Positions 6,298 through 41,878 of a stretch of 45,288 bases of DNA are shown here, one piece after another. Every line of letters starts with the position of its first letter. Within the stretch, counting starts at the first letter, position 1. Made by a program: the position numbers and the translations under genes. This DNA is from Prevotella sp. (GTDB lineage Bacteria > Bacteroidota > Bacteroidia > Bacteroidales > Bacteroidaceae). Below the pieces are notes generated by a model. That model did no database searches. It saw nothing but the letters and a program-made list of their open reading frames with translations, and was not told where the DNA came from. The stretch spans positions 1 through 45,288 of the forward strand of contig JAFUFD010000047.1 in assembly GCA_017470055.1 (NCBI GenBank), given 5' to 3'.

Positions 6298-6400
6298 GAT
6301 AAAATAATCAATTCCCTCCAAATGTTTTTCCAAGAATTTTTTGCCTTTAACATTTCCACCTTATTTATTTTAAATATCTAGTTCATCCCATTACATGAAA

Positions 6401-6433
6401 AAAGCCATCTTGAGACGTCCCCAAGATGGCTTT
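6401..6433 (-). terminator. Intrinsic terminator after the flavo-diiron gene
   Basis: A 12-bp perfect stem (AAAGCCATCTTG paired with CAAGATGGCTTT) encloses a 9-nt loop. In the leftward direction it is followed by a run of T. It lies 4 bp past the stop of the flavo-diiron gene, so it should end the PfkB-FDP transcript. Confidence 0.85.
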
Positions 6434-6437
6434 AAGA

Positions 6438-7619
6438 TTATTCTGCTTGCAGCCGTTCTGCCATTGCCCTGCCTAACGCTTCACACTGGGCTTTGGTCTC
6501 TGGGGTTAAACTCTGTTTAATCTCTACAGGCTCACCCACGGGCTCATAGTGCAATTTCTCCTCATTCCATCGGGAAATCTCGCTCACTGCCTTGGAAGCC
6601 CAGCCATAGGAGCCGAACCATCCCAAGAGGTGGTTCTTGATGTCCTTGCCCGCCAATTCAGAGAGCAGCACGTCCATCTCATGATAGAGGGCTGTGTTAT
6701 AGGTGGGAGCACCAACAATCAGCCCCTTATAACGGAACACGTCACGGATGATATAGGAGTGGTGGGTTTTGGAGACATTATACATCACGATATTTTTCAC
6801 ACCAGCCTCGGAGGCTGCACGGGCAATGACCTCTGCGGCACGCTCGGTATTGCCATACATCGTACCGTAGCAGATGACAAGTCCTGGCTCTGTCTCGTAT
6901 TTCGACATGCGGTCATACTCGGCGATTACCTTGTCAATATACTGATGCCATACAGGACCATGGGTCGCGCAGATGTAATCGAGTTTTACGCCAGCGAGTT
7001 TCTTAAGGGCATTCTGTACGGGTGTACCATACTTACCCACGATATTCGAGTAGTAGCGCACCATCTCCAACCAGAAAGTGTCACAGTTGATCTGCTCATC
7101 GATGACGCCACCATTCAAAGCGCCGAAACAGCCAAAGGCGTCGCCACTGAAGAGGACGGAGCCACAGAGGGTCACCATCGTCTCAGGCCAATGGACCATC
7201 GGTGTCAACACGAAGTTAAGTGTATGGCTTCCTAACTCGATGGAATCGCCGTTTTTCACTTCTATTGTTCCGTCTGCGATGCCATAAAATCCCTCCATCA
7301 TCTGGAAAGTCTTCTTGTTGCCAATAATCTGGATATTCGGATAGTATTTCTTGACGAGGGCGATAGATCCGCTATGGTCAGGCTCCATGTGGTTGATGAC
7401 CAGATAGTCGACAGGACGCTCCCCAATCACCTCTTGGATATGCTCGATGAATTGGGTAAAAAAGTCGACCTCTACAGTATCTATCAGGCACACTTTCTCG
7501 TCGTCAATCAGATACGAGTTATAACTCACGCCATTGGGCAACGGCCAGAGCCCCTCAAAGAGCGACTTGTTGCGGTCGTTGACACCCACATAATAGATGT
7601 TGTTGGTAATTTCTTGCAT
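6438..7619 (-). CDS. Flavo-diiron protein (FprA-type O2/NO reductase)
   Basis: This 393-residue protein has the usual flavo-diiron length and order. Residues 1-240 form a metallo-beta-lactamase-like diiron domain with ligands in HMEPDHSG (H77, E79, D81), VHWPE (H143), SGDAF (D160) and THGP (H220), which is the full iron set. From about 246 a flavodoxin domain starts with the FMN loop YGTMYGNTE (251-259). Such proteins reduce oxygen to water and/or nitric oxide to nitrous oxide in the cytoplasm of anaerobes, with electrons from rubredoxin or a similar donor. No rubredoxin domain is attached. The gene lies 17 bp after a PfkB kinase gene and is followed by an intrinsic terminator, so the two form an operon. 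Confidence 0.93.
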   Translation of the reverse strand: MQEITNNIYYVGVNDRNKSLFEGLWPLPNGVSYNSYLIDDEKVCLIDTVEVDFFTQFIEHIQEVIGERPVDYLVINHMEPDHSGSIALVKKYYPNIQIIGNKKTFQMMEGFYGIADGTIEVKNGDSIELGSHTLNFVLTPMVHWPETMVTLCGSVLFSGDAFGCFGALNGGVIDEQINCDTFWLEMVRYYSNIVGKYGTPVQNALKKLAGVKLDYICATHGPVWHQYIDKVIAEYDRMSKYETEPGLVICYGTMYGNTERAAEVIARAASEAGVKNIVMYNVSKTHHSYIIRDVFRYKGLIVGAPTYNTALYHEMDVLLSELAGKDIKNHLLGWFGSYGWASKAVSEISRWNEEKLHYEPVGEPVEIKQSLTPETKAQCEALGRAMAERLQAE

Positions 7620-9903: not shown

Positions 9904-12105
9904 CTAATTGCCTTTTGTGATACCACCCACGACATCATCGTTCTCAATGGTGCGCTCTGCTTTCTTGACGGATGCCTTGAGGGAGCCGAAGCGGAAACTG
10001 ACAGAGATGGCAAACTGCCTGCCACGGTTATAGGACGTGCCGAGGTCACGGAAGTCGCCGTTGACGGCTTCGTCACAGTATTTGGTATAGCGGTCGAAGG
10101 GATCGTTGGTCATGAGGCGTACCGTCAGGCGGTCGTCTTTCAGGAACGAGCGTTGCAGCGAGGCGTAATAGCCATACCACGAGTGCTGCATATAATAGAC
10201 ATTGGAGGGGTTATGCCCTATCTTGCCATACGCACTGAGCGATAGTTGCAGCCGCCATGGCAATTTCTGTGTGAGGCTGACATAGTAGTTGTCAGACCAT
10301 CCGAAATTCCGATAACCGAGGTTGGGATTCTCATAGTGCTCATAACGTGCCGTATTGTTGAAGACAAGGGTCGTTGTCTCAAAAGGTCGCCACTGCACAT
10401 ATTGCTCAAAAGTGGCACGTCGGTAACGCTGGATATTATCATATGTCAGATAACGGATATCCCCCTCCGCTGTCTGGATAGAGGCAATGCCGCCATTACT
10501 GAACTGGTAACCAGGAGCCAGTTGGAGTGTCAGTTGTTTCCCCACATACATATAGGCAAGGCTGATGCGCTGGGAGTGGGAACTGGTCAATTCCGGATTA
10601 CCGCTCTGTATGATGGTTGGTGAGACGATCACGGCGGGGTTCAGGTAGGAGATACCAGGGCGGTTAATGCTGGTGGTATAGTTTAATTTCAGCGATTGCG
10701 CATCGGTGATTTGATATTTCAGACTTGCCTGTGGCACCCAGTCGCTCAATCTGTGTCTGAATGTCTCACCACTACCGTCGGGATAACACCCTCTCATATA
10801 ACTGAACTCATAGCGCAGTCCCGCACGAGCCGACCATTTATCCTTATTATAGATATAGTCGGCATAGCCTGCCATGACACGGGTGGTATGCTCAAACTCG
10901 CTGTTGGCCTCTGGCAGCACACCGCCATAACTTTGCGTGTTATGACTGTTATTATTACGGTCGATATACTTGGCACCTATCTCTAATTGATGTCCTTTGC
11001 CCAGAGGGCGCAACCAGTCTATCTGGAAGGTATGCTCCGTAAACCGCTCCCGCTCCTTCTGGAGTGAGTTCGTGTAAGGGAAGGGGGCGTCAATGAGGTC
11101 GGTATACTCATTCTCCTGATCCGTATGTTGGCGCGTCAGGGCGAGCATGTAAGAGAGTGTAAGCAACTCGCCCTTTCGACGCGTCTTATGCTCAAAGTCC
11201 AGTCGTCCGTTCCATGACTGATGACTGTAGCCTGGCATCCAGTAGTGGTTGTTGTAACTATAAAGTGGAGTATTAGTGGCATCGTATAATGATTCCCTGC
11301 CGTCTCCTTTCACATTCAGTTTATAGAAATAGCCACCAAAGGAGGCAGATAACAGGTTAAGGGAGTCAATATCATAACTGGCGTTGATGTCGCCAAAGTG
11401 AATACCTCCAGGATTGCTCCCCTCACGATGGGAGAGCAGTCTGTTGCCCGTTTGGAGAAAGGTACGCTCCACGTCACCCTTATTCTCTGTCTCACGACTT
11501 GACATACCGCCATAGCCATAGTTGCCTGATAGGAGTAACTTGCCTATCTGCCCTGTCAGGGAGGTGTAGAGGTTAGGATGGTTCAGGGAATTATAGTAGA
11601 GGTTGAAGACACCTGTCACCCCATCGAACTTTGAGCCATCCACCATCACGATATTCAGGATAGCATCCACTCCCTCGGCATCCTCACGGGCACCAGGGTC
11701 AGTGATGACCTCGATACGCTTCACCATCGAGGCAGGCATCGACTTGAAAATCTCTTTGGCATTTTTCGACAGGTTAGGGTCGTAGTGCCCATTCTTATAG
11801 ATTTTAAAGTTGCTGTTGCCTTTCACCTTGATATTGTCATCTCCGTCGACCGTCACCATCGGTACCTTGCGCAGCATGTCCATCACCGTCTGTGTCTTCG
11901 ACTCCTCGTCAGCCTGCACATCATAGCCGATACGGTCAATCTCCTGTTTGATGAGTTGTCGCTGAGCCTTTACCTCAATACCCTCCAGTTCCTGGTCCCA
12001 AGTGATGGAGTCATTCTCCACTCTCAGACTGTCTGTTTGACCCATAACAGTCCCTGCTTTCACTGCCATCAGGAGTGAAAGACATATTAATTTGCCATAT
12101 TTCAT
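9904..12105 (-). CDS. TonB-dependent receptor-like outer-membrane beta-barrel protein
   Basis: A protein of 733 residues with a signal peptide (to about residue 22, VMGQ). A plug-like domain follows (DMLRKVPMVTVDGDDNIKVKG, then MPASMVKRIEVITDPGAREDAEG near 120-150), and a long C-terminal region of alternating beta strands ends in KASVKKAERTIENDDVVGGITKGN. It lacks the carboxypeptidase-D regulatory-like domain that opens many Bacteroidetes receptors, so it belongs to the shorter outer_membrane_beta-barrel_3 type. The substrate is unknown. It is the last gene of the leftward operon headed by the ECF sigma factor, 6 bp after the preceding gene. Confidence 0.85.
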   Translation of the reverse strand: MKYGKLICLSLLMAVKAGTVMGQTDSLRVENDSITWDQELEGIEVKAQRQLIKQEIDRIGYDVQADEESKTQTVMDMLRKVPMVTVDGDDNIKVKGNSNFKIYKNGHYDPNLSKNAKEIFKSMPASMVKRIEVITDPGAREDAEGVDAILNIVMVDGSKFDGVTGVFNLYYNSLNHPNLYTSLTGQIGKLLLSGNYGYGGMSSRETENKGDVERTFLQTGNRLLSHREGSNPGGIHFGDINASYDIDSLNLLSASFGGYFYKLNVKGDGRESLYDATNTPLYSYNNHYWMPGYSHQSWNGRLDFEHKTRRKGELLTLSYMLALTRQHTDQENEYTDLIDAPFPYTNSLQKERERFTEHTFQIDWLRPLGKGHQLEIGAKYIDRNNNSHNTQSYGGVLPEANSEFEHTTRVMAGYADYIYNKDKWSARAGLRYEFSYMRGCYPDGSGETFRHRLSDWVPQASLKYQITDAQSLKLNYTTSINRPGISYLNPAVIVSPTIIQSGNPELTSSHSQRISLAYMYVGKQLTLQLAPGYQFSNGGIASIQTAEGDIRYLTYDNIQRYRRATFEQYVQWRPFETTTLVFNNTARYEHYENPNLGYRNFGWSDNYYVSLTQKLPWRLQLSLSAYGKIGHNPSNVYYMQHSWYGYYASLQRSFLKDDRLTVRLMTNDPFDRYTKYCDEAVNGDFRDLGTSYNRGRQFAISVSFRFGSLKASVKKAERTIENDDVVGGITKGN

Positions 12106-12111
12106 ATCTTC

Positions 12112-12966
12112 TTATTTCTTGAGTCGTTCGATGCTCATGTCGAACAACTGCTGGATAAACTCATCTTTTGTTTTCTTCTTCAGTTTCAGGATCTCTGTCG
12201 CCACCATGTTCTTCTCCACGTCCTCCAACGACTGGGCATCCTTACAGAGTCGGTAGATTTCCGCAGCATAACTGTTTGCCGCATTGCCGTCAGGGTTTTT
12301 CAGGAAGTGGTTCTTGTAGGTATTGAACTCCGTGAGCCATATCTCCGAACTTTTCTCATTCATATTGAAACTGAAACTATTGCCCAGACCCTCAAGCACC
12401 TGCATCGTATTGCCATTGATACTAATCGTTCGCCGCTGCGTGGTCTTCCCTTGTCGAAATTTCAGTGTCGTCGCATAAGTCTTGACGATACGCCCTCTTA
12501 TCTTGTTGCCGTCCTCCGCCCATTCCAAGGCATAGGCATAACGGTGCTGGCGCAGTGAGTCGTTGGGGTCAAGGAAACAGGCATAAATCCATTTCGAACC
12601 TTTTATCAGTCCGATAGCAACACCTCCTTTTGTAGCGTCACCAACGGCAAGAGAGACTAAATCCTCACTATTACCTTTCGACCCTGTACTGACACTATAG
12701 GCATTAGCCTCGTCCTGCTCGAATGCTTTCCTGATGATATCTATCATTTGTTTATCCCGATTATTAGTTATCTCGAAGTCGAATGTGTCTTCTAATCCCA
12801 CCATCTTTCCTGAGTCAGGATCCTTTTCCATATTATGTATGGAACTAACTTCTTTGACGTTACTTCTCCTCAAGACATCAAAAGCCCGTTGGATGCGTTG
12901 CTGTGCAAAGACAGCCGCAGGCATCAGCATCAGCATACCCACGATAAGAATGTTTTTACTCTTCAT
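12112..12966 (-). CDS. Exported protein of unknown function (DUF6108-like)
   Basis: About 284 residues from the ATG at 12966, which gives a clean signal peptide (MKSKNILIVGMLMLMPAAVFA, cleaved after AVFA). An earlier ATG at 12996 would add ten residues and overlap more of the upstream gene. The mature protein begins QQRIQRAFDVLRRSNVKEVSSIHNMEKDPDSGK and ends in a basic helix. No catalytic motif is evident; similarity to a Bacteroidales periplasmic family is from memory only. It overlaps the anti-sigma-like gene by 11 bp and precedes the receptor gene, so it is part of the sigma operon and probably a periplasmic element of that signalling unit. Confidence 0.7.
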   Translation of the reverse strand: MKSKNILIVGMLMLMPAAVFAQQRIQRAFDVLRRSNVKEVSSIHNMEKDPDSGKMVGLEDTFDFEITNNRDKQMIDIIRKAFEQDEANAYSVSTGSKGNSEDLVSLAVGDATKGGVAIGLIKGSKWIYACFLDPNDSLRQHRYAYALEWAEDGNKIRGRIVKTYATTLKFRQGKTTQRRTISINGNTMQVLEGLGNSFSFNMNEKSSEIWLTEFNTYKNHFLKNPDGNAANSYAAEIYRLCKDAQSLEDVEKNMVATEILKLKKKTKDEFIQQLFDMSIERLKK

Positions 12967-13576
12967 ATGCAAAATAATTTTCTGGTTCATCAACATAAAT
13001 AACGGTTCCGTCTTCCAGCATTACAGGTACGAAACCTGTGGCAGTCAACTGCGCATGGGCTATCTCCCGTCGTACTTGCTCTATCTGCTGCTTGACAGCC
13101 TGTTGCTCTTGCTCCACCTCTGCCATCAGCGTATAAGCCTTGTCGTAGTCGTGGATGGTAGGCTCTGGCTTGCGGATGCGTGGTCGCCTTGGTTTGACGG
13201 GCTGTTGCTTCTGTAAGGCAGTGGTATCAGGCAAAGGCTGCTCGTTAGGCGCCTCTGGACGTAACACCGTGGTGGTATCAGCCTTTGCAGTCAGGGTGGG
13301 ATACTGCTGTCCTGTCTGTTGCCATAACATGGCAACAGACAGGACAGCCGTTCCTACTACGGCGGCAGCGGCACTCCAGCCCAACCAGCGTTTCTTTGCC
13401 TTCTTAGGTCTCATGCCCTCTATTTCCGCAAACAACAGACGATATTCCTTCCATTCCTCAGGCACGTTGCCTTGGGTGAAGTACTGGTTAAGGATGTCCT
13501 CCTCCTCCAGTGTCGTCGTACCGTCCATAAACTTGGTCAGCAGACTTTGGATATATTCCTTGGTATATTGTCTCAT
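12956..13576 (-). CDS. Anti-sigma-factor-like membrane protein
   Basis: This 206-residue protein has a cytoplasmic N-terminal part (1-62) that resembles the start of Bacteroidetes anti-sigma proteins (YTKEYIQSLLTKFMDGTTTLEEEDILNQYF). One membrane segment lies at about 64-86, followed by a Pro/Gln-rich linker and a periplasmic coiled-coil-like region (MAEVEQEQQAVKQQIEQVRREI). It overlaps the sigma gene by an ATGA, the standard layout for an ECF sigma factor and its anti-sigma factor. The assignment is by context and topology; there is no zinc-binding HxxxCxxC motif. Confidence 0.65.
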   Translation of the reverse strand: MRQYTKEYIQSLLTKFMDGTTTLEEEDILNQYFTQGNVPEEWKEYRLLFAEIEGMRPKKAKKRWLGWSAAAAVVGTAVLSVAMLWQQTGQQYPTLTAKADTTTVLRPEAPNEQPLPDTTALQKQQPVKPRRPRIRKPEPTIHDYDKAYTLMAEVEQEQQAVKQQIEQVRREIAHAQLTATGFVPVMLEDGTVIYVDEPENYFAYEE

Positions 13577-14067
13577 ATATTGTTCCTTCGCTTAATGTCT
13601 TCTAATAATGCTCGTCGTGCCCTTGCCAGTAAAGTGCTGACGGAAGTTATCTCAATGCCTATGAGTTGGGCTATCTCCTCATGGCTGCGCCGTTCCACCT
13701 GTCGCATATATAATAAGGTACGTTGTGTGGTGGGCAGTTGCTCCAGTTTCTTTGTCAGCCATTCCTCATTCTCTTTTGTTTCCAGCAGTTCCTGAGGACT
13801 CTCTGTCAACAGCGTCACGGTTTCCGCTTTCAGGGGTTCCATCGACCGTCGTCGTTGGTGGTTTCTTACCAGATGGCGTGTCATCAGTGCCACCAGAGCC
13901 TCAACGGAATGGTATTTCTCCAGTTCGTCGCGCATCTGCCACAGATGGAGCATCACATCCTGTGCGATGTCCTCTGCCTCCTCATTGCCCGCTCCACAGC
14001 GATGTCCTACACTCAGAGACAACAGATGCCATGTGCGGGCTTTTTGTTCAAATGCGCTTTTGTCCAT
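13573..14067 (-). CDS. ECF-type RNA polymerase sigma factor
   Basis: In this protein of 164 residues region 2 includes EEAEDIAQDVMLHLWQ (about 29-44) and YHSVEALVALMTRHLVRNHQRRR. Region 4 includes LEQLPTTQRTLLYMRQVERRSHEEIAQLIGIEITSVSTLLARARRALLE with a clear helix-turn-helix. It starts an operon of four genes: sigma, anti-sigma-like, exported protein and beta-barrel receptor. The operon resembles receptor-coupled signalling in Bacteroidales. Its promoter carries one of the two identical 20-bp boxes described at 14186 and 15164, so expression of this sigma factor is probably controlled by a PhoB/OmpR-type regulator. Confidence 0.92.
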   Translation of the reverse strand: MDKSAFEQKARTWHLLSLSVGHRCGAGNEEAEDIAQDVMLHLWQMRDELEKYHSVEALVALMTRHLVRNHQRRRSMEPLKAETVTLLTESPQELLETKENEEWLTKKLEQLPTTQRTLLYMRQVERRSHEEIAQLIGIEITSVSTLLARARRALLEDIKRRNNI

Positions 14068-14145: not shown

Positions 14146-14153
14146 CAAAAGTA
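14146..14153 (-). promoter_or_regulatory. -7 box (TACTTTTG) of the ECF sigma operon
   Basis: The reverse strand reads TACTTTTGCAGC about 78 nt before the ATG at 14067. The 20-bp direct-repeat box at 14186-14205 ends 32 nt upstream of it. Confidence 0.6.
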
Positions 14154-14185
14154 ATAAGACGATATGAGGCGACCTAAAATAAAGA

Positions 14186-14205
14186 CTGACATTTGTCTGA
14201 CAATT
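14186..14205 (-). promoter_or_regulatory. PhoB-box-like operator upstream of the sigma operon
   Basis: In the leftward direction this reads AATTGTCAGACAAATGTCAG. It holds two TGTCAG half-sites with an 11-bp period, the layout of E. coli pho boxes bound head-to-tail by OmpR/PhoB-type winged helices. An identical 20-mer, in the same orientation relative to its promoter, lies at 15164-15183. It touches the stop codon of the neighbouring gene. Confidence 0.6.
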
Positions 14206-14671
14206 AATAATTATCAAGTATCTGCTTCAGTTTCTCACGCTCGCGTTCTTTCTTTGACTTGCGATGTGGGAGAATCTTGCTGAGGACATAGCCGATGAGA
14301 GATAGCGGATTGACACCTATCATCATGGCTCCCCCTTGCTGTTCCTTGCGTTGTTCCTCCAACCAATGACTCTGGTAGGCAAGTCGCATATCAGTTTTCA
14401 ATGCTGGTGTTATGATATTGATGTTTACTTTGGAGTGCTCTGGTATCTGTTCTAATGGGTTGATAGCAGAAAAGTGCGATTCCATCGGGGATATCACCTG
14501 ACTGTCACGGGGGACTGATCTCAAAGGCTCATTACGCAGCCATTCCTCATAGTCGCTCCTCAACGAGTCTTGCCGCAGGCGATGTTTGTCATCGTCAGAC
14601 ACTTGCGCATGGCATGTCGTAGTCATCAGCAACAGGACGAAAGGCAATATATAAATAAGGTGATGAACCAT
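14204..14671 (-). CDS. Exported or membrane-anchored small protein, partner of winged-helix protein
   Basis: This 155-residue protein has an N-terminal hydrophobic segment (LIYILPFVLLLMTTTCHA) that looks like a signal peptide or anchor. A polar region follows, then a second modest hydrophobic stretch (MMIGVNPLSLIGYVLSKILPH, about 115-137), and a very basic tail (RKSKKEREREKLKQ). No family is recognised. It starts at the base next to the stop of the winged-helix gene, with no gap, so the two are co-translated. The pair could be a split version of a membrane-linked regulator, with this protein as the envelope sensor; that is inference from layout. Confidence 0.65.
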   Translation of the reverse strand: MVHHLIYILPFVLLLMTTTCHAQVSDDDKHRLRQDSLRSDYEEWLRNEPLRSVPRDSQVISPMESHFSAINPLEQIPEHSKVNINIITPALKTDMRLAYQSHWLEEQRKEQQGGAMMIGVNPLSLIGYVLSKILPHRKSKKEREREKLKQILDNY

Positions 14672-14986
14672 TCAAAACTGTATCAAGCGATAGCCGAGCC
14701 CCCGTGCATTGATAATTTTAAGGGATGGGTCAGCAGAAAGAATATGTTTCATACGTGACATGAAAACATACAATGAATTAAGGTTATAAATATTGTCATC
14801 ATCCCAAAATTCAATTAAGAGGATGTGGTTCTCTACGATGTCACCTTGTGCCTCTATCAGCATGCCAAGGATAGAAGCCTCACGAAACGATAATTTCCTA
14901 GAGGACGATGCCCCGTCTGGAGCATGGTACGATAGTTCCTGCTTCTGAACGTTTAACTCAAAACGCCCGATTTTCAAAATGTCCAT
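14672..14986 (-). CDS. Stand-alone OmpR/PhoB-type winged-helix DNA-binding protein
   Basis: Its 104 residues make up little more than a winged-helix domain. The order is that of response-regulator output domains: an N-terminal sheet (ILKIGRFELNVQKQELSY), KLSFREASILGMLIEAQGDIVENHILLIEFW, a recognition helix NLNSLYVFMSRMKHIL and the C-terminal wing INARGLGYRLIQF. There is no receiver domain, so it is not a phosphorylation-controlled regulator on its own. It is flanked by two identical PhoB-box-like sites facing outward (14186 and 15164) and has a related box in front of its own promoter (15067). It is therefore the natural candidate for the protein binding those sites, though the membrane-bound regulator at 15863 is an alternative. 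Confidence 0.85.
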   Translation of the reverse strand: MDILKIGRFELNVQKQELSYHAPDGASSSRKLSFREASILGMLIEAQGDIVENHILLIEFWDDDNIYNLNSLYVFMSRMKHILSADPSLKIINARGLGYRLIQF

Positions 14987-15026
14987 AACTTTGCGTTACT
15001 TTTTATCAGTATTTGGATTGACGGCG

Positions 15027-15034
15027 CAAAGTTA
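15027..15034 (-). promoter_or_regulatory. -7 box (TAACTTTG) of the winged-helix gene
   Basis: The reverse strand reads TATAACTTTGCGCC, 40 nt before the ATG at 14986. The 252-bp gap 14987-15238 holds this promoter, the opposing promoter of 15239 and two operator-like repeats. Confidence 0.6.
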
Positions 15035-15066
15035 TAGTGAATAAACAAAATAAGCAGGCAGATTTA

Positions 15067-15083
15067 CCTTACAAAACCTTACA
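15067..15083 (-). promoter_or_regulatory. Direct-repeat operator before the winged-helix gene
   Basis: The leftward strand reads TGTAAGG-TTT-TGTAAGG, two 7-bp copies with a 10-bp period. The site ends 32 nt upstream of the TAACTTTG box, the same distance as the TGTCAG boxes of the two flanking promoters. Autoregulation is inferred. Confidence 0.5.
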
Positions 15084-15163
15084 GATGATTAAATTAAGGC
15101 TTTCTTAAAGTATTTTTGGTTTAAAAATCTTTCATCAGAATAATAAAGATTAACGGAATCATG

Positions 15164-15183
15164 AATTGTCAGACAAATGTCAG
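15164..15183 (+). promoter_or_regulatory. PhoB-box-like operator upstream of 15239
   Basis: AATTGTCAGACAAATGTCAG is identical, in inverted orientation on the map, to the site at 14186-14205. It lies 33 nt upstream of the TATCTTTG box at 15217. The two TGTCAG half-sites are 11 bp apart, and the position just upstream of the -33 region suits an activator. Confidence 0.6.
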
Positions 15184-15216
15184 GATAATTAGCCTTGTCT
15201 TATCTCATTGTTTTCC

Positions 15217-15224
15217 TATCTTTG
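15217..15224 (+). promoter_or_regulatory. -7 box (TATCTTTG) for 15239
   Basis: TATCTTTGC lies 14 nt before the ATG at 15239, giving a very short leader of about 8-10 nt. Confidence 0.6.
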
Positions 15225-15238
15225 CATGAAAAACAGAA

Positions 15239-15790
15239 ATGGGAATCAAACGATTTACTTTGCTGGCACTCTTGTTGATTGTCATAGGAACGATAGTCAT
15301 TTTGTGGGAAGAGAAGGAGGAGTTACCCACCTTCCCAGAGAAGTTAGAAGAGGCGATGAGGTATGGGCGCATGAAGACCTATCACCAACCTTATTATGAC
15401 TATGAGGTGAGATATCCCGCATTCTTTGAGCAGGTGCCAGACTCCCTGATTGACGGAGAAGGTACCTGTTTGTTCCGTTGTGGAAATGTAGAGTTGTCGG
15501 CACAGGTCATTCCTAATAGCGACAGCCTCAGTGTTCAAAACGGAATGCAATACTTCGCTACTCTCCATCATGCAGAACAGCAACAATCAGACAGCCAATC
15601 CTTCATTCTGTCTGGGCAACTATATATGAATGACAGCCCCATTCCTAACTATCGTTTCTATGCCAAGTATGTTTGCCATCGCAAATTCTGGTTCGTACAG
15701 ACACTCACCTATCCCGACAATTGTGCCAAAGCCGTAGAACGCCTTGTCCAACAAATCAACAACTGGGCAGTGTGGGAAAACCCTATATAA
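15239..15790 (+). CDS. Single-pass envelope protein of unknown function
   Basis: A protein of 183 residues with one N-terminal membrane segment (FTLLALLLIVIGTIVILW, about 6-23). A soluble, presumably periplasmic domain follows, with alternating hydrophobic strands (YDYEVRYPAFFEQVPD, CLFRCGNVELSAQVIP, IPNYRFYAKYVCHRKFWFVQTLTYPDN). This resembles the small lipoprotein-like folds that bind or sense surface material, but no family is recognised. Its promoter carries one of the paired PhoB-like boxes. The last codons lie within a 46-bp sequence repeated at 18633. The regulator at 15863 follows in the same direction with its own -7 box. Confidence 0.7.
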   Translation: MGIKRFTLLALLLIVIGTIVILWEEKEELPTFPEKLEEAMRYGRMKTYHQPYYDYEVRYPAFFEQVPDSLIDGEGTCLFRCGNVELSAQVIPNSDSLSVQNGMQYFATLHHAEQQQSDSQSFILSGQLYMNDSPIPNYRFYAKYVCHRKFWFVQTLTYPDNCAKAVERLVQQINNWAVWENPI

Positions 15791-15834: not shown

Positions 15835-15842
15835 TACTTTTG
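15835..15842 (+). promoter_or_regulatory. -7 box (TACTTTTG) of the membrane-anchored regulator
   Basis: TACTTTTG lies 20 nt before the ATG at 15863. It places the true start downstream of an in-frame GTG at 15800. Confidence 0.55.
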
Positions 15843-15862: not shown

Positions 15863-16534
15863 ATGAAACACCATTATGTCATTGTGCTTTTTGCACTCAT
15901 CGTAACTTCCAGTATGGTTAGTTTTACAAGTTATAGGGCAACGGAACACGAAGTGAACGAGGACATGAGCCAGGCACTTGCCTTGGCACTGGAGGAACAG
16001 CAGTCGGATGTCATTAACGCTGATACGATACAAGTGTTCAACAGGAACCTTCGGATGGAGGCGTTAAGAGGAAAGGCAATGCTTGCGGTAGACACCCGAC
16101 AGGGCTTCCGCCCTCGTCCCCAATGCTCTATTGCCACTATCCTCGCTTTGTCTGATCAGCGTCCTGCCATGGTCTTGTGGATGATAACCATGCTGTGGGG
16201 TACGTTCTGGCTATGGCAGCAAAGAAAGCATTTGCCCTTGGATTGTGGCTATGGCGGATTAATGTATGCTGAAAACGACAGGCGTTTCTATGATGCGCAA
16301 GGCGAGCAAGTGAAATTGACTCCGATGCAACTGCAACTAATGGAGATGTTCTGGCAATCTCCCTCGCATCTTCTGACAAAAGCAGAGATATGTAACACCT
16401 TGTGGCCTAAGAAAGATGACGCCAACGAGACGCTCTATACCCTTATCCGCAGACTGAAGCCCGTCATAGAGCAACATTCCAACCTCAAGATAGAATCCGA
16501 CCGTGGTCGTGCCTATGGACTGAAAGTCAATTGA
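15863..16534 (+). CDS. Membrane-anchored winged-helix transcriptional regulator
   Basis: About 223 residues from the ATG at 15863. Residues 5-22 are a membrane segment, about 25-98 are a periplasmic region, about 101-118 are a second membrane segment (PAMVLWMITMLWGTFWLW), and 130-223 are an OmpR/PhoB-type winged helix (VKLTPMQLQLMEMFW, the SHLLTKAEICNTLW helix, NETLYTLIRRLKPVIE recognition helix, GRAYGLKVN wing). The domain order is opposite to ToxR, which has its winged helix first, but the logic is the same: a membrane-bound one-component regulator with its DNA-binding domain in the cytoplasm. It converges with the TPR/HTH regulator gene across 12 bp. It is a possible binder of the direct-repeat operators between 14.1 and 18.6 kb. 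Confidence 0.85.
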   Translation: MKHHYVIVLFALIVTSSMVSFTSYRATEHEVNEDMSQALALALEEQQSDVINADTIQVFNRNLRMEALRGKAMLAVDTRQGFRPRPQCSIATILALSDQRPAMVLWMITMLWGTFWLWQQRKHLPLDCGYGGLMYAENDRRFYDAQGEQVKLTPMQLQLMEMFWQSPSHLLTKAEICNTLWPKKDDANETLYTLIRRLKPVIEQHSNLKIESDRGRAYGLKVN

Positions 16535-16546
16535 TTATCTATGAAT

Positions 16547-18067
16547 CTACATTCCCCGCAAACGAGCGTCAAAATCTCGGGCTCCGCCTTTCTCACCAAA
16601 GATTTTTAATAGTAAGGCGGTACGCATATTGGTGACTCGCTGAGGCGAGATAGCCGTCAATATCGCAATCTCGCTGGGCGTGAAGCGAAGTCGTATCAGC
16701 AGACAGATATTGGTCTCTAAAGGGGAGAGTAAGGCTGCCCCGTTCAATCGAGCAAGGAATGTTGGTGATTGTTGCTGGACCAAGGTATGCAATTCCTGCC
16801 AGTCTCCATCTGAGGCCTCTTTGCCTTTTGCCGCCATGTGGTGCAAATGATTGACAGCATCTGCAGATAGCAGATGCTCTGCGATCTGCCACGTCAGGTA
16901 TTTCTGGTTAAGCGCATCGATATGGGTATGCAGCCGGTTAATGCGACGGCGATAATACCATATGCCTATCAGAATGGCAAGTAATAAGATGCTGATACAG
17001 GAAAGCAGGAGAATGGTGACACGATACTGGTGCCGCTCCTTCTGTTGCTGGTCAATCTGTGTCTGAAAGGCGATGATGTCAGCAGCAGGACTCTCCACAT
17101 AGGCATGCTGATAATACTGGTTTAAGCGTTTCGAGAGGTCGGCGACTCGCTCATAGAAACCTTCTTGCTGATAATAGTTTATGAGTTGCTCATAGCAATG
17201 AATGCGGATGGCGGGGTTGTGGGAATGCAGCAACTCATACCATAGGTCGTGTGCTTGTCTGATGTTCCCCTCATCTGACGCTATGTCAGCAAGCAACATC
17301 GTTCCCTTGTCGAGTTGGGCATATTGACGAGAAGCAGTTATCAACTGTTTTGCCTCTTGCCACTTGCCTTGGTGCCTCATCATACTTGCCTCGTTGACCA
17401 TGGAGGTCGCACGGACAATATTCCATGTCTGGCTCCTCAACGATTTCGATGCCTCGACATAGTATTGCATACTGTCTATCTGCTCGTTCTTATCGAAAGT
17501 CGTAGCGAGATTATTCAACATTTGCACCTGCCAATTAACATCACCCACCTCCGTTGCTACTCTCAAGGCTTGATGGTAACAGCGGAGCGTCTGACGGCTG
17601 TCAGCGGCATTATCGTTGATATCCCCCAAGACAGCGTAGAGCGTATAGCACAGCCCGGCATCATCAAGGTCGCACACCATCTTCTCCACCTCCTTGACAA
17701 GACTCAGTCCCTCAATATAATGCCCTCTGGAATATAATTCCATTCCATGATGCAGCATGGCACGTGCCTGATGACGCTGATCGCCTTGCGTCTTGAAAAA
17801 GTCGATGCTCTGCTCTATATTTGTCTCACCAGTCAAAGGGACACCTACCCCATGCAGTGCCTCTGCTGTTACCAATTGGAAGAGCGCTTTTTGCAAAGTG
17901 TCATTAATGGCCTTGCATCTCGTCAGAGAGTCCAGCATCAGAAGGGCACGGTCAGGGTTATGGTCGGCTTCATATTCCACCTCACTGAGCACCCCATAGG
18001 CAGGCTGCCTCTGGGAACAGCCTGCCATCAAGAGAGTAATCAATAATATAAATAATGAGTTTCTCAT
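16547..18067 (-). CDS. TPR lipoprotein with TM and C-terminal helix-turn-helix
   Basis: This 506-residue protein carries a lipobox, LLMAGC with Cys17, at the N-terminus. Residues about 35-320 form helical TPR-like repeats (for example ARAMLHHGMELYSRGHYIEG and LRCYHQALRVATEVGDVNWQ). A membrane segment at about 349-372 is followed by a charged coiled stretch. The C-terminus (about 447-506: SPLETNICLLIRLRFTPSEIAILTAISPQRVTNMRTAL) is a LuxR-like helix-turn-helix. It therefore appears to be a trans-membrane one-component regulator with a periplasmic TPR sensor, a type common in Bacteroidales. A cleaved lipobox plus an internal membrane span would anchor it twice; the N-terminal segment may instead be an uncleaved anchor. 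It overlaps the TonB-C gene by an ATGA, so they form one operon. Confidence 0.8.
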   Translation of the reverse strand: MRNSLFILLITLLMAGCSQRQPAYGVLSEVEYEADHNPDRALLMLDSLTRCKAINDTLQKALFQLVTAEALHGVGVPLTGETNIEQSIDFFKTQGDQRHQARAMLHHGMELYSRGHYIEGLSLVKEVEKMVCDLDDAGLCYTLYAVLGDINDNAADSRQTLRCYHQALRVATEVGDVNWQVQMLNNLATTFDKNEQIDSMQYYVEASKSLRSQTWNIVRATSMVNEASMMRHQGKWQEAKQLITASRQYAQLDKGTMLLADIASDEGNIRQAHDLWYELLHSHNPAIRIHCYEQLINYYQQEGFYERVADLSKRLNQYYQHAYVESPAADIIAFQTQIDQQQKERHQYRVTILLLSCISILLLAILIGIWYYRRRINRLHTHIDALNQKYLTWQIAEHLLSADAVNHLHHMAAKGKEASDGDWQELHTLVQQQSPTFLARLNGAALLSPLETNICLLIRLRFTPSEIAILTAISPQRVTNMRTALLLKIFGEKGGARDFDARLRGM

Positions 18068-37476: not shown

Positions 37477-38442
37477 TTATTTTTGAGATTTCGCTATCAC
37501 TTTTCCATCAATCACCTCATACTGCTTATTGAATTCCTCATGCGTGCGGCTCCATCGATTGTGACTCCATAACCAGAACTCTGGAGCCCTTTGAATACTT
37601 TCCTCCAACATCTGATAATAGATGTCTGTGATTTGATACTCCGCCATCTTTTGGGGCTCACGGGTTATCAACTTAAACTCAGCCTCGTAGTAACCACGCT
37701 TGATGCGCCTGACATCCATATAGAAAACAGCATGGTTGACCTTTCGGACAATGCGCTCTGTACCTGTCAGCACTGGGGTGTCATGATGCAAGAAGTTCAC
37801 CCAGTGATGTATATTGGTCCAATAGGGCTTTTGATCCGAGATATAGCCGATGACTACAGGCTGTTCCTCTTTGCGGTACTCTAAAATCTTACGTAGCGTG
37901 TCCTGCATGGAGATGCAGATGGCTCCTAACCGTTGGCGCAGATGCAGGAAGAGAAGGTCTGTGCATAGATTCTCCATCGGATGGTATATCTGTCCGCACT
38001 GTGCTTTGGGTGTTACCCATAAAGGCAAAGAGGTGATCCACTCCCAGTTGCCGTAATGTCCAAGATAGACGGCACACGACTGTCCGCTGTTTATGACCTC
38101 ATCGACAAGTGCTGTACCTTTGAAGACCATGCGCTTCTTAAGGTTCCCCTTGCTGATGGTCATCAACTTGACGCTCTCCACCAGATAGTCGCAGAACCAA
38201 TGGTAGAACGCACGTTCTATTTTCTGGATTTCCTGTTCTGTCTTTTCTGGGAAGGATGTCTCTAAGTTTCTCCGTACCACCCTACGGCGATATTTTACGA
38301 TGCGATACAAGATGTAATAGATTATATCACTGAACACATAATGCATCCTTAGGGGTATGAGTGAGAATACATACCAAAAACCTAACAGTATATAGTATGC
38401 CGTATACTTTAATGCCCTGTATCGCTCCTTATTATATCCCAT
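37477..38442 (-). CDS. LpxL/HtrB-like lysophospholipid acyltransferase
   Basis: This 321-residue protein has an N-terminal hydrophobic anchor (YTAYYILLGFWYVFSLIPLRM). The HxxxxE acyltransferase motif is GHYGNWEW (H129, E134), and the block YRKEEQPVVIGYISDQKPYW is typical of secondary lipid A acyltransferases. It probably adds an acyl chain to lipid A or a related glycolipid at the inner membrane. It overlaps the GT32 gene by 11 bp. Confidence 0.9.
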   Translation of the reverse strand: MGYNKERYRALKYTAYYILLGFWYVFSLIPLRMHYVFSDIIYYILYRIVKYRRRVVRRNLETSFPEKTEQEIQKIERAFYHWFCDYLVESVKLMTISKGNLKKRMVFKGTALVDEVINSGQSCAVYLGHYGNWEWITSLPLWVTPKAQCGQIYHPMENLCTDLLFLHLRQRLGAICISMQDTLRKILEYRKEEQPVVIGYISDQKPYWTNIHHWVNFLHHDTPVLTGTERIVRKVNHAVFYMDVRRIKRGYYEAEFKLITREPQKMAEYQITDIYYQMLEESIQRAPEFWLWSHNRWSRTHEEFNKQYEVIDGKVIAKSQK

Positions 38443-39193
38443 GTTGTCGGTGCTTCTTACTAAGTTTGAAAAACCTGCGAACTTTCTCCCAAGGAGTCAG
38501 GTGCCAAGAGTGGGCACACATGTGAATGGCGTAACTATTCTTGGTGACTTCGTGCTTGTTGCCGGCAAACGTCTCAGAGGGGTAGATATGGATTCGCTCT
38601 GGCAGTTGCTGGTCAATATCTTTGTAGACGAAACCCTTTGACTCTGCCACTCTCGCATAGATATAAGGTGAGAGGACATCAGTGCGCAGTGCCCCGTCTT
38701 CTTTCACGAAATGTTTGTCTTGATACCAGTCAAGCACTTCTTTCACGAACGGGCAACCTGGCTCTGCTCCCATGATAGCCGCCTGTATCTGAATACCCTG
38801 TATAAAGACATCCTCCGTACGGTGCCCCTCATCGTCCAGATAGCGCAAGGAATCGCATTTCTCTATCTGAATAGGGTGATACTCCATACTGGAGAAAAAG
38901 GAGTTGTCAAGGAAATCGTCAAACCGTTTCAGCAAGATAACATCGGAATCGAGATAGATGCCCCCTTCGGTATAAAGAGCATACATTCGGATATAATCGG
39001 CAGCAAAGGCCCATTTATGTGCATCAAATGCTTCTTTGACGTATGGGACAGAGTTGATATCGAAATTCTCAGTACTCCATCGGATAATCTCATAGTCAGG
39101 GTGTGTCTTCTGCCAAGTATCCATACATTTCCTTATTTTTTGAGGAAATGGGTCATTACTTAACCAACAGTAGTGTATCTTCTTTGGAATCAT
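38432..39193 (-). CDS. GT32-family glycosyltransferase
   Basis: A protein of 253 residues. The start IPKKIHYCWLSNDPFP and the block WAFAADYIRMYALYTEGGIYLDSDVIL with the DxD motif (D82, D84) are diagnostic of the GT32 / capsular polysaccharide synthesis family. The catalytic domain is complete; a C-terminal basic tail may contact membrane. It is the first gene of the leftward envelope operon. Sugar donor and acceptor are unknown. Confidence 0.9.
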   Translation of the reverse strand: MIPKKIHYCWLSNDPFPQKIRKCMDTWQKTHPDYEIIRWSTENFDINSVPYVKEAFDAHKWAFAADYIRMYALYTEGGIYLDSDVILLKRFDDFLDNSFFSSMEYHPIQIEKCDSLRYLDDEGHRTEDVFIQGIQIQAAIMGAEPGCPFVKEVLDWYQDKHFVKEDGALRTDVLSPYIYARVAESKGFVYKDIDQQLPERIHIYPSETFAGNKHEVTKNSYAIHMCAHSWHLTPWEKVRRFFKLSKKHRQHGI

Positions 39194-39215
39194 CTTGATG
39201 AAGTGGTTTCGGATG

Positions 39216-39223
39216 CAAAGTTA
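39216..39223 (-). promoter_or_regulatory. -7 box (TAACTTTG) of the GT32 operon
   Basis: The reverse strand reads TAACTTTGCATCCG, 22 nt before the ATG at 39193. Confidence 0.6.
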
Positions 39224-39295
39224 ATGAAAAGTTTGGAAACTAACAATAATAATAAGGTTTTCTGTTATTAAATTGTCTATATAAATAAATTTTTG

Positions 39296-39303
39296 TACTT
39301 TTG
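39296..39303 (+). promoter_or_regulatory. -7 box (TACTTTTG) of the GT25-GT90-GT11 cassette
   Basis: TACTTTTGTCACC lies 31 nt before the ATG at 39335. The 141-bp divergent gap is otherwise AT-rich with nothing else recognisable. Confidence 0.55.
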
Positions 39304-39334
39304 TCACCGATAAATTAGTTAGTAGAAATATAAT

Positions 39335-40063
39335 ATGTCAGAGATACAAGTGCTTGTCATTCACGTCCGCGGACATGAAGACCGTAGGAGATTCATCCAG
39401 AAACAGTTGGACAAACTGGGATTTCCTTATGAGTTCATCCTCGATGGGAATGTAGAAGACCTTACACCGGAAGTTCTTGACCGTTATTTTATTGACAATG
39501 GAAAACCGGATACGATGTACGGTTCATTTCCTCGTACGAGTTGTGCTTATAAAGAATTTCTGGCTTATAAATATATTCTTGATAACAATCTTGAGGGTGC
39601 TTTAATATTAGAGGATGATATACGGCTTTTTGATAATTTTACTAATTTATTCCTCAAAAGTATTGATGAGTATACAGAAGAACACTCTGAAGAATCTTTT
39701 ATTGCAAATTATGAAGAGAGCAGCCTTTTGTTAGTTCCCAAAAGTAGAAGAGAAAAGGGAAAGATTTTGTATCCTGCTCAACGTGACCGTTTTACAGGTT
39801 GCTACTATTTAAATTGTAAGGCTGCGGAATGTATTTTGTCATACGTTAATAGAAATAGATGCGATATACCATTAGATAGATTTCTTAGCAAATTGATAGA
39901 AATGGGGCTAATACAATATTACTGGAGTCATCCATGTTTGGCATGCCAGTGCAGTGCTGACGGTTCTATGCCGACAACCATCCCCACAAAACCTCGTCCT
40001 TGGAAACGTCTAAAGTGGTTTTATAAACGTATCTACAAACACCTGCTCTACTATTTTCGCTGA
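39335..40063 (+). CDS. GT25-family glycosyltransferase (LPS-type)
   Basis: This protein of 242 residues opens with VLVIHVRGHEDRRRFIQKQLDKLGFPYEFILDG, the standard start of GT25 (glycosyltransferase involved in LPS biosynthesis). The acidic motif is ALILEDDIRLF (E93-D94-D95), and YYLNCKAAECIL is also seen. The coding sequence is visibly AT-richer than the flanking operons. Its stop overlaps the next start by one base. Donor and acceptor unknown. Confidence 0.88.
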   Translation: MSEIQVLVIHVRGHEDRRRFIQKQLDKLGFPYEFILDGNVEDLTPEVLDRYFIDNGKPDTMYGSFPRTSCAYKEFLAYKYILDNNLEGALILEDDIRLFDNFTNLFLKSIDEYTEEHSEESFIANYEESSLLLVPKSRREKGKILYPAQRDRFTGCYYLNCKAAECILSYVNRNRCDIPLDRFLSKLIEMGLIQYYWSHPCLACQCSADGSMPTTIPTKPRPWKRLKWFYKRIYKHLLYYFR

Positions 40064-41058
40064 TGATGGATAAAAGGAAACTTTATTATATGCTGCACAG
40101 TGGCAAGAATAGTAATCTGAAATATTATCTCAGAAGTTATTTGAGAGAATATACACCCAAAGTTTTCTCCCAAATGCGACTCAAGGGTTTGTTAATTCAG
40201 ATGGACGAACGTGCCGACAAAGACTATATCTTGCAACGGGTGGACTATTATTGTAAGTTACAAAGAGACAGTGTTTTTGATGGCAATACATGGGAAAAGA
40301 AGGCTGTTCGTCTTTGTGACCAGCGGATAACAGGACAGAAGACCTATTATTTCGACTCCATGGAGTATGCTCGTTACTTTAACCAAGACCTGCGTTGGAT
40401 TCTTGATGAGGGCGACAAGCCCTATGTGGCTCCTGAGCCTGCTATCGTTAAAAATCGTCCTTTGGTCGATAACAATCAGAATTCTGTGTTGCTAAATATG
40501 GATAAGAATCGTCATTTCCTTTTTGTAGACGATAAAAAGGAATGGAGAGATAAACAAGATATAGCCATCTTTCGGGGTGATTTGGGACCACGTAAGGAAA
40601 ATAGAGATGTTTTTATGAAACGCTGGATAGGACATCCTATGGTCGATGCCGCGTCTACTAACCGTTCAGAGGAACATCCAGAGTGGCAAAAAGAGAAAAT
40701 GACCATCGGGGAGCATTTAGACTATAAGTTTATCATGTCGTTAGAGGGCAATGATGTTGCCTCTAATCTGAAATGGGTCATGTCGTCTAATTCTATTGCT
40801 GTGACTCCCAGACACACTCAGGAAACATGGTTCATGGAGGGGAAACTCATTCCCAATTACCATTATATAGAAATAAAAGATGATTTCTCTGATTTAGAAG
40901 AACGCCTAATCTATTATATAGAGCATCCCGAGGAGGCTGAGGCTATTATCCAGCATGCCCATGAGTGGGTGGATCAATTCTGTGACAAGAAGCGTGAGAG
41001 ACTCATCTCACTCCTGGTGTTAAAGAAATATTTTGAAATTACTAATCAAGATTCCTGA
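40063..41058 (+). CDS. GT90-family (CAP10-like) glycosyltransferase
   Basis: A 331-residue protein. IAIFRGDLGPRKENRDVFMKRW, YKFIMSLEGNDVASNLKWVMSSNSIAVTP and ETWFMEGKLIPNYHYIEIKDDFSDLEERL are the core blocks of GT90 (CAP10-like) enzymes, which often act on lipopolysaccharide O-chains in Bacteroidales. There is no membrane segment. An alternative start is the second Met. It is linked to both neighbours by single-base stop/start overlaps, so the three genes form one transcript. Confidence 0.85.
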   Translation: MMDKRKLYYMLHSGKNSNLKYYLRSYLREYTPKVFSQMRLKGLLIQMDERADKDYILQRVDYYCKLQRDSVFDGNTWEKKAVRLCDQRITGQKTYYFDSMEYARYFNQDLRWILDEGDKPYVAPEPAIVKNRPLVDNNQNSVLLNMDKNRHFLFVDDKKEWRDKQDIAIFRGDLGPRKENRDVFMKRWIGHPMVDAASTNRSEEHPEWQKEKMTIGEHLDYKFIMSLEGNDVASNLKWVMSSNSIAVTPRHTQETWFMEGKLIPNYHYIEIKDDFSDLEERLIYYIEHPEEAEAIIQHAHEWVDQFCDKKRERLISLLVLKKYFEITNQDS

Positions 41059-41876
41059 TGATATTCGCAAGAGATAAAGCCCAAATGTGCAACAATCTGT
41101 TGCAGTATGCCCATGTCTATGCATGGGGTAGAGAGCATGGACGAAAAGTTATCTCCATGCGTTTCAGTTATAAGTACCAATACTTCCATATCTGCCATAC
41201 CAATTTGACAGGTTTTGGCTGGTATCTTCTTGCTAAGTATCTTGCAGCGCTTAAACTTCTGCCTACAGCAAATTTCAAGCATGCTGAGTGTGACCACCAT
41301 GCCTTAGAGCAGAAAATGCTACGCCATCGACATGTCGTAGTGAGTGGCTGGTATGTACGCTATTATGATCTATTCCTAAAATATCGTGATGAAATATGCG
41401 ATCTCTTTCGTATTGATAAACAATATACTGAATCCGTTAGAAAAGAAATGGCTCAATGGAAAGGGGTGAAATTAGGAGTCCATATACGCAGGGGTGATTA
41501 TGCGATATGGAAGGATGGTATTTATTTTTATTCAGACAAACAATATGCTACTGCTATCAACCAATTTACCTCTCTGATGCCTAATAAAATCATAGACATT
41601 TATCTCTCTACAAACGATACTGAAGTTTCCCAAAAGAAGTATGAGCAAATGATTGATAATGAAAGAGTACGAGTTCATCTTTTAGGGGGTTCCCCAGTTG
41701 AAGACCTCTTTATGCTCTCAGAATGTGATTTTATTATTGGTCCACCTAGCACATTTTCATTAGTCGCTGCGATGTATCGGGATATTCCATTATGTAGAAT
41801 GGATATGGTAAAATTAGACCAGTTTTCTCTTTCCGATTTTAGACTTTTTGATTATTGGTTTAGAAATCTTGTTTAA
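41058..41876 (+). CDS. Alpha-1,2-fucosyltransferase-like enzyme (GT11-type)
   Basis: This protein of 272 residues has the hallmark LGVHIRRGDYAIW (H142-RR-D) of GT11 alpha-1,2-fucosyltransferases. The later blocks IIDIYLSTNDTEVSQKKYEQM and DLFMLSECDFIIGPPSTFSLVAAMYRDIPLC are also typical. The N-terminus (AQMCNNLLQYAHVYAWGREHGRKV) is a variant of the usual GGLGNQMFQYA loop, so exact donor and linkage are less certain. It is the last gene of the GT cassette; its end lies 2 bp from the convergent GT87 gene. Confidence 0.78.
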   Translation: MIFARDKAQMCNNLLQYAHVYAWGREHGRKVISMRFSYKYQYFHICHTNLTGFGWYLLAKYLAALKLLPTANFKHAECDHHALEQKMLRHRHVVVSGWYVRYYDLFLKYRDEICDLFRIDKQYTESVRKEMAQWKGVKLGVHIRRGDYAIWKDGIYFYSDKQYATAINQFTSLMPNKIIDIYLSTNDTEVSQKKYEQMIDNERVRVHLLGGSPVEDLFMLSECDFIIGPPSTFSLVAAMYRDIPLCRMDMVKLDQFSLSDFRLFDYWFRNLV

Positions 41877-41878
41877 GT

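Follow-up and report, generated by a model that had tools for sequence, protein, structure and literature searches.

Two identical 20-nt sites (AATTGTCAGACAAATGTCAG) in a 45,288-nt contig of Prevotella sp. (GenBank assembly GCA_017470055.1, contig JAFUFD010000047.1; this whole stretch of DNA is called the window below) are very probably the operators of TM-wHTH, a predicted membrane-tethered one-component regulator with a winged helix-turn-helix domain, which would drive both of the operons in front of which they stand. One operon is headed by a gene for an extracytoplasmic function (ECF) sigma factor, and the other contains the TM-wHTH gene as its second gene. Judged from sequence, the widespread TM-wHTH family appears to act on cell-surface genes, both in Prevotella and in a small number of relatives. 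We think it likely that it represents an undescribed family of membrane-tethered winged-helix activators with reverse domain order, frequent in Prevotella and scattered in other Bacteroidales, with a near-invariant phased operator and an envelope regulon of its own (probable barrels, a TMEM260-like transferase, and an ECF sigma cascade), in which a C/A base of the operator switches with the protein subfamily, as a natural specificity switch. A search of the open-access literature, subscription papers being outside its reach, returned no description of this regulator or of its box. Prevotella is a major gut, rumen, and oral genus, and we know of few regulators with known sites that have been described in it.

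Two operators at matched distances from divergent promoters

The sites and their predicted promoter elements are as follows (window positions and strand).

15164-15183, plus strand: right operator, TGTCAG-N5-TGTCAG, 33 nt 5' of the -7 box of the right operon; kept in L053, L054, L055, and G293
14186-14205, minus strand: left operator, identical copy, 32 nt 5' of the -7 box of the ECF sigma operon, running from the stop codon of the 155-aa gene
15217-15224, plus strand: TATCTTTG, predicted -7 element of the right operon (consensus TAnnTTTG)
14146-14153, minus strand: TACTTTTG, predicted -7 element of the ECF operon (consensus TAnnTTTG)

The original prediction placed an exact 20-mer at 15164-15183 and its inverted copy at 14186-14205, each with two TGTCAG half-sites at an 11-bp period and with a TAnnTTTG box 33 nt (right) or 32 nt (left) past its end. 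All of this is borne out by a search of the whole window and by the reading of 15217-15224 and 14153-14146. PMC7366714 quotes TAnnTTTG as the -7 consensus for the housekeeping sigma factor in Bacteroides. Between the two copies the prediction saw one gene, for a lone winged helix; that gene is indeed there, but the interval holds two genes, for proteins of 104 and 155 aa, and the second, at whose stop codon the left copy starts, had been omitted.

In 100 dinucleotide shuffles of the window, the 20-mer had no match at up to 3 mismatches. Its 18-nt core has two exact matches in the 3.39-Mb assembly, both of them the window copies, and no further match there at 1-2 mismatches; 3 mismatches add two more, and the reversed pattern gives four at up to 3 mismatches. 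Scatter of the 20-mer through the genome, which the original prediction had named as evidence against itself, was looked for, and with just two sites in the assembly within 2 mismatches of the core, chance or a dispersed repeat is rejected as an explanation. The exact pattern TGTCAG-N5-TGTCAG occurs three times in the genome (the two window copies and one on contig C61), and at up to 1 mismatch its count equals that of the reversed control (18 vs 18). Since the half-site pair is no commoner than this control, the exceptional feature is therefore the long exact site. Both boxes are kept, at 0-1 mismatch and equal spacing, in the metagenome-assembled genome (MAG) RGIG3792 (L053), Prevotella sp. 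tf2-5 (L054), and RUG037 (L055), and in an alignment of the window with its relatives the promoter DNA flanking the boxes is more variable than the boxes themselves.

The same geometry recurs across the genus. The set used for geometry and for the sequence logo was freed of the seven loci holding window copies, the logo also of 2 boxes with 5 mismatches. Among 84 distinct boxes selected for lying 31-35 nt from a TAnnTTTG, 59 stand at 32, 24 at 33, and one at 31 nt. All twelve half-site columns carry 1.9-2.0 bits in 82 boxes, a value inflated by choosing boxes for their resemblance to the pattern. Of the 82, 38 have a third half-site another 11 bp upstream, as against 0-1 at six other offsets. 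TTTG occupies the -33 position (23-25 nt before the -7 box) 23 times among the 82 promoters, which fits promoters needing help. Seen from the side of the box, 30 loci from the box search comprise 23 with a phased box, and 17 have TM-wHTH within 1.5 kb each way; in 5 of the 7 unphased loci the box falls inside a reading frame.

The box tracks the gene of a predicted membrane winged-helix protein

The proposed cognate regulator is encoded directly in the right operon.

15863-16534, plus strand: TM-wHTH, with a hydrophobic helix, a loop, a second, weaker hydrophobic helix, and a C-terminal PF00486 winged helix

Each of 20 aligned members carries a C-terminal PF00486 domain and, at a lenient hydropathy threshold of 1.2, two hydrophobic segments. 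In the same 20 members the domain scan found no receiver domain and no Pfam match to the part preceding the winged helix; the sole other family at E≤0.01 was PF03965, in four members, and in the window protein it overlaps the winged-helix region and stays below cut-off. Searched against the PDB, the TM-wHTH profile finds matches only from residue 116 on, to response regulators and to TcpP (9gdr, E 0.0047, winged-helix part). This arrangement suggests a topology with the N-terminus inside, a periplasmic loop (about 75 residues in the window protein), and the C-terminus inside.

At E≤1e-10, TM-wHTH is found in 230 of 398 genomes of the genus. Outside the genus, 294 genomes of the order yielded it in five, one from the same family, and four of the five have a box nearby; a phylum-wide sample of 295 other genomes yielded none. 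The 18-nt core at up to 2 mismatches is present in 219 of the 398: 197 genomes have gene and box, 33 the gene only, 22 the box only, and 146 neither. The box thus occurs in 197 of 230 genomes with TM-wHTH vs 22 of 168 genomes without it (odds ratio 39.6, p 8e-51, a value that overstates independence, the genomes being related and some incomplete). The reversed-pattern control shows no such association (28/230 vs 18/168, odds ratio 1.16, p 0.75). One TM-wHTH copy, L225 (G437:C49:5379-6104), has an in-frame TAA.

Location follows the same pattern. Seventy loci were assembled from the 30 best-matching loci of the TM-wHTH search and 40 plus-strand rows hand-picked with the box list in view; a TM-wHTH frame and at least 150 nt downstream were required, which removed L175 (no frame) and L172 (39 nt downstream) and left 68, and L240 (G038) and L241 (G288) stayed outside the analysis. 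In 50 of the 68, a same-strand box (up to 3 mismatches) lies within 150 nt past the TM-wHTH stop. None has a box in the 400 nt upstream of TM-wHTH, and 100 shuffled patterns gave 0. Of these 50 boxes, 37 precede TAnnTTTG by 32-34 nt and 7 by 43-44 nt, and 6 are unphased. The 33 TM-wHTH genomes without a box at up to 2 mismatches (34 matches and 30 loci, the four extra being a second copy in G341 plus G009, G414, and G452, which were read separately) include 21 with a phased box at 3-4 mismatches, 6 with TGTAAG repeats, and 1 with an unphased box.

Genes downstream of the boxes

The two operons of the window, with a possible internal promoter, contain the following.

15239-15790, plus strand: E183, 183 aa, hydrophobic segment near the N-terminus; its gene is the first past the right operator
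15835-15842, plus strand: TACTTTTG, 28 nt 5' of the TM-wHTH start, possible own promoter of TM-wHTH
13573-14067, minus strand: ECF sigma factor of the PG0214/GFO_1088 family (NF058625, 131.5 bits against a cut-off of 130, a narrow pass)
12956-13576, minus strand: 206-aa membrane protein, probable anti-sigma partner, named from position and one hydrophobic segment only
12112-12996, minus strand: 294-aa protein with no assigned function
9904-12105, minus strand: 733-aa outer-membrane barrel protein with plug (PF14905, PF07715)

For E183, neither Pfam (E≤1) nor NCBIfam (E≤0.01) gave a match. Past 114 distinct phased boxes (window copies included), the first gene is barrel-like in 53 cases, TMEM260-like in 28, E183 in 21, and an ECF sigma factor in 6. 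These four groups make up 108 of the 114; a 269-aa protein (1) and boxes followed by no frame or a contig edge (5) complete the set. One of the 53 barrel-like proteins is a relative of the 733-aa barrel, and the other 52 form a second family, 25-44% identical among themselves and weakly related to that barrel (best E 5e-5). Six of the seven of these ~690-aa proteins that were scanned had no match over the Pfam cut-off and the seventh had a carboxypeptidase-regulatory domain; the one searched against the PDB had no match there. Their signal peptides and plug-like starts, read by eye, make a location in the outer membrane probable. The name TMEM260 comes from PF11028 in one member, and the presence of such genes past 28 of the 114 boxes hints at regulated envelope glycosylation. 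Relatives of this TMEM260-like protein O-mannosyltransferase (L125 2123-4999, L238 3218-6244) stand directly past the box in both TM-wHTH subfamilies described below.

In L123, L129, L130, L131, and L142, a single row of genes runs TM-wHTH, box, E183, ECF sigma factor, and homologues of the 206-aa, 294-aa, and 733-aa barrel proteins, with two exceptions: E183 is at the far end in L131, and the ECF sigma factor is uncalled as a frame in L142. Other loci have different orders or different genes past the box. The clade of the window has the same parts as two divergent operons, one box each, and it is through the operon that the box and TM-wHTH are linked in the window and its four nearest relatives. 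TM-wHTH is probably read from the box promoter in L053, L054, L055, and L139, because no TAnnTTTG occurs in the 150 nt preceding its start. In G221 (L138 7986-10611), E183 and TM-wHTH are separated by two genes, one with MutS domains and one of 271 aa; the window has neither, and L054 and L139 have the 271-aa gene only.

Operator variants and protein subfamilies

A divergent TM-wHTH subfamily, called B, shares 25-29% BLAST identity with the window protein (51% in one short alignment). It was read in G009, G036, G049, G063, G070, G384, G414, and G452, and in 8/8 of the loci read phased TGTAAG repeats, one with a TATAAG half-site, precede a TMEM260-like gene. The set is biased, six of the genomes having been met as TM-wHTH genomes without a TGTCAG box at up to 2 mismatches, while G049 and G063 were chosen for a TGTAAG match. 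Of 122 distinct TM-wHTH proteins, a number that includes loci found via the box, 93 have a box within 330 nt of the stop. Of these 93, 84 combine a recognition-helix Leu with TGTCAG, 8 combine Phe with TGTAAG, and one has an unresolved motif. Only this Leu/Phe position separates the box types fully, a separation that is confounded by descent. The 104-aa family, on another branch, likewise has Phe at that position and a TGTAAG repeat of its own.

Two other codes were tried and fail: a simple Arg/Ser code one helix position ahead of the conserved Arg, where Ser goes with TGTCAG in 4 proteins and with TGTAAG in 4, and an acidic/Asn code at the residue preceding Thr/Ser, where Asp is found with either type of box. 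In a tree of the winged helices, built on 84 columns and with many weak forks, the TGTCAG proteins form a single clade (100/99), and the TGTAAG proteins stand next to it, unresolved as a clade.

The 104-aa protein and alternative regulators

Between the operators lies a module that appears to be separate and to have its own promoter site.

14672-14986, minus strand: 104-aa lone winged helix (PF00486), grouping with the DNA-binding domains of response regulators
14204-14671, minus strand: 155-aa protein, gene directly after the 104-aa gene; a homologue likewise follows it in G300 and G447
15068-15083, minus strand: TGTAAG-N4-TGTAAG, 33 nt 5' of the -7 box (15034-15027) of the 104-aa gene; found in 7/7 orthologues read
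155-aa homologues, a recurring partner of winged-helix genes: L187 2715-3547; L185 4714-5510; L186 10738-11244

The domain scan found no receiver domain in the 104-aa protein, and the tree places it among response-regulator domains (100/100), away from TM-wHTH. The repeat at 15068-15083 is the probable own site of the module: TGTAAG-N4-TGTAAG stands exactly 33 nt before a TAnnTTTG in all seven orthologues read (one with CGTAAG as its first half), in four different surroundings. Besides those in the genus survey given below, orthologues are known from four named records (70-97%) and from G447 (67%).

The original prediction had pointed to this protein as the regulator, and it has the right fold and the right location, between the two sites; its gene and the boxes are both kept in L053, L054, and L055, and the resemblance of its own repeat to TGTCAG-N5-TGTCAG makes some cross-binding possible. 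That it binds both sites and activates both operons is nevertheless very unlikely, and this part of the prediction was not borne out. Orthologues at 60% identity or more occur in 2 of 90 genomes of the genus examined, some of them incomplete. An orthologue (66-97%) is present in just 4 of 24 box-bearing genomes, the other matches listed being at most 37% identical and in frames of at least 233 aa, whereas all 24 have a membrane winged-helix gene close to the box. G293 (93% complete) has divergent ECF and E183 operons and two exact boxes separated by 28 nt, and a search of it with the 104-aa protein gave nothing at E≤1e-8; because both boxes are there and the gene is not, the boxes are independent of the 104-aa protein. 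The gene, for its part, occurs without a TGTCAG pair in 5.8 kb of its locus in G300, and in 12 kb of L056, where its neighbour is related to the 733-aa barrel gene. Its own conserved site (7/7) also differs in base and in period. A related proposal, in which TM-wHTH is the main activator at shared sites and the 104-aa protein competes or modulates in this clade, would account for the module between the boxes in four sources (the window, L053, L054, and L055) and would suit half-sites one base apart (TGTCAG vs TGTAAG) and the orthologue of G447, which lies within about 5 kb of a TM-wHTH gene. The different period and base of the module's own site, and its presence in G300 on another contig than TM-wHTH, make this proposal rather improbable.

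The boxes could also be true pho boxes bound by PhoB, with both operons in the phosphate regulon. TGTCA at an 11-bp period is the pattern of the Escherichia coli pho box, such as the pstS site tabulated in PMC10294691, and G226 and G035, from the clade of the window, have a PhoB above cut-off. This explanation is extremely unlikely, however. The window genome (95.25% complete) has no PhoB over the NF053854 cut-off (best 190.5 of 270 bits), nor do G221 and G176, in which the boxes are present (four of the seven genomes tested pass), and all 16 PhoU matches in six genomes fall in open frames of 566-680 aa. The first genes past the 114 phased boxes include no phosphate genes, and the box tracks TM-wHTH.

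Several observations also weigh against the assignment of the boxes to TM-wHTH, or against parts of it. No box was found in the stretch read in 5 of the 33 TM-wHTH genomes without a close match; 18 of the 68 loci, including the window and its four nearest relatives, lack one within 150 nt; and for 29 of the 122 distinct genes no box lies as close as 330 nt to the stop. Even at E≤1e-5, TM-wHTH is missing from the 22 genomes that have a box at up to 2 mismatches, although most of these boxes are probably chance matches, because their rate (22/168) is near that of the control (18/168); one genome without TM-wHTH, G013 (L242), carries a pair of phased boxes ahead of a barrel-like gene on a short contig. 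As to topology, which is read from hydropathy alone, the second segment of the window protein peaks at 1.20, below the initial threshold of 1.3. As to feedback, the window TM-wHTH may have its own promoter (15835-15842). As to specificity, G260, G340, and G435, which have similarly low TM-wHTH scores and a box at up to 2 mismatches, were left out of the subfamily B reading, and the TGTCAG/TGTAAG change may need one event in the tree, so that the pairing of residue and base is confounded by descent.

Some further observations concern the module. Upstream of the 104-aa promoter (15068-15083, minus strand, up to about 15125), a block AACCAAAAATA..TTTAAGAAAG is shared with L056 and L187 in other surroundings. 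Besides the 155-aa homologues that follow the 104-aa gene in G447 and G300, another just precedes a short TM-wHTH frame in G081. In L141 (G079:C1), a 97-aa winged-helix frame at about 6373-6624, 45% identical to the 104-aa protein, lies on the opposite strand about 1.3 kb before a TM-wHTH gene.

Proposed mechanism and relation to known systems

The site, its spacing, co-location, co-occurrence, and the site difference between protein subfamilies are features of the sequence itself, from which we infer binding by TM-wHTH, activation, topology, and feedback. Under this model, the C-terminal PhoB-type winged helix of TM-wHTH would bind the TGTCAG direct repeats, two or three of them, one domain per 11 bp, and the domains would sit head to tail in the manner of PhoB at its own box, immediately 5' of the -33 region. 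Bound TM-wHTH would recruit the housekeeping polymerase to the TAnnTTTG promoters and so activate them. In the clade of the window it would drive the divergent operons of E183 and TM-wHTH and of the ECF sigma factor and outer-membrane barrel, with the 104-aa winged helix and its 155-aa partner as a separate module between the operators. Lying within its own target operon, TM-wHTH is likely to be autoregulated, probably by positive feedback; the usual gene order has the box past TM-wHTH and not before it. Because of the target genes, an envelope cue is suggested as the signal sensed. The two broader claims of the original prediction fare well in this light: the sites do resemble PhoB-box-like operators of a winged-helix regulator, and one shared regulator of the ECF sigma operon and its neighbour is very likely, with activation as its presumed mode.

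Known regulators resemble TM-wHTH in part. Members of the ToxR family (ToxR, CadC, TcpP), as described in PMC5936718, have an N-terminal DNA-binding domain, a single transmembrane helix, and a C-terminal periplasmic domain. They are one-component regulators tethered to the membrane, and TM-wHTH, for which hydropathy predicts such a tether, likewise has a PhoB-type winged helix and lacks a receiver. In TM-wHTH, by contrast, the order is reversed, two hydrophobic segments preceding a C-terminal winged helix. The likeness to E. coli PhoB and its box lies in TGTCA direct repeats, an 11-bp period, and strict spacing to the core promoter (PMC10294691), and the difference in the missing receiver. TM-wHTH would work like ToxR-family regulators, and like PhoB at the box, yet it meets neither definition, because of its reversed domain order, the lack of a receiver, the lack of a PhoB over cut-off in the window genome, and the lack of phosphate genes in first position. 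The nearest relatives of the 104-aa protein are RprY and other OmpR/PhoB response regulators of Bacteroidales (NF051850, 58.6 bits), from which it differs in having no receiver domain and in scoring far below the 370 bits set as the cut-off for RprY. In the left operon, the sigma factor passes the NF058625 cut-off of the PG0214/GFO_1088 ECF family.

By sequence alone, a frequent regulator with a predicted membrane tether is matched here to a sharp operator, to promoters of fixed geometry, and to few probable envelope targets, an ECF sigma factor among them. Direct tests of its signal, regulon, and specificity thereby become feasible. The match also suggests that in Bacteroidales the periplasm can be linked to transcription in one step that needs no phosphotransfer, and the TGTCAG/TGTAAG subfamily pair offers a test case for base choice by PhoB-type helices.

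Neighbouring regions of the window

The convergent neighbour of TM-wHTH (16547-18067, minus strand) encodes a tetratricopeptide repeat (TPR) protein that has a strong hydrophobic segment and whose C-terminus, by eye, resembles a helix-turn-helix; it is perhaps a second membrane-anchored regulator; homologues lie near TM-wHTH in L126 (22%) and L187 (38%). Further along, at 38001-44000, the G+C content drops from about 0.46-0.48 to 0.40-0.42 over genes that resemble, by eye, those for glycosyltransferases and surface polysaccharides.

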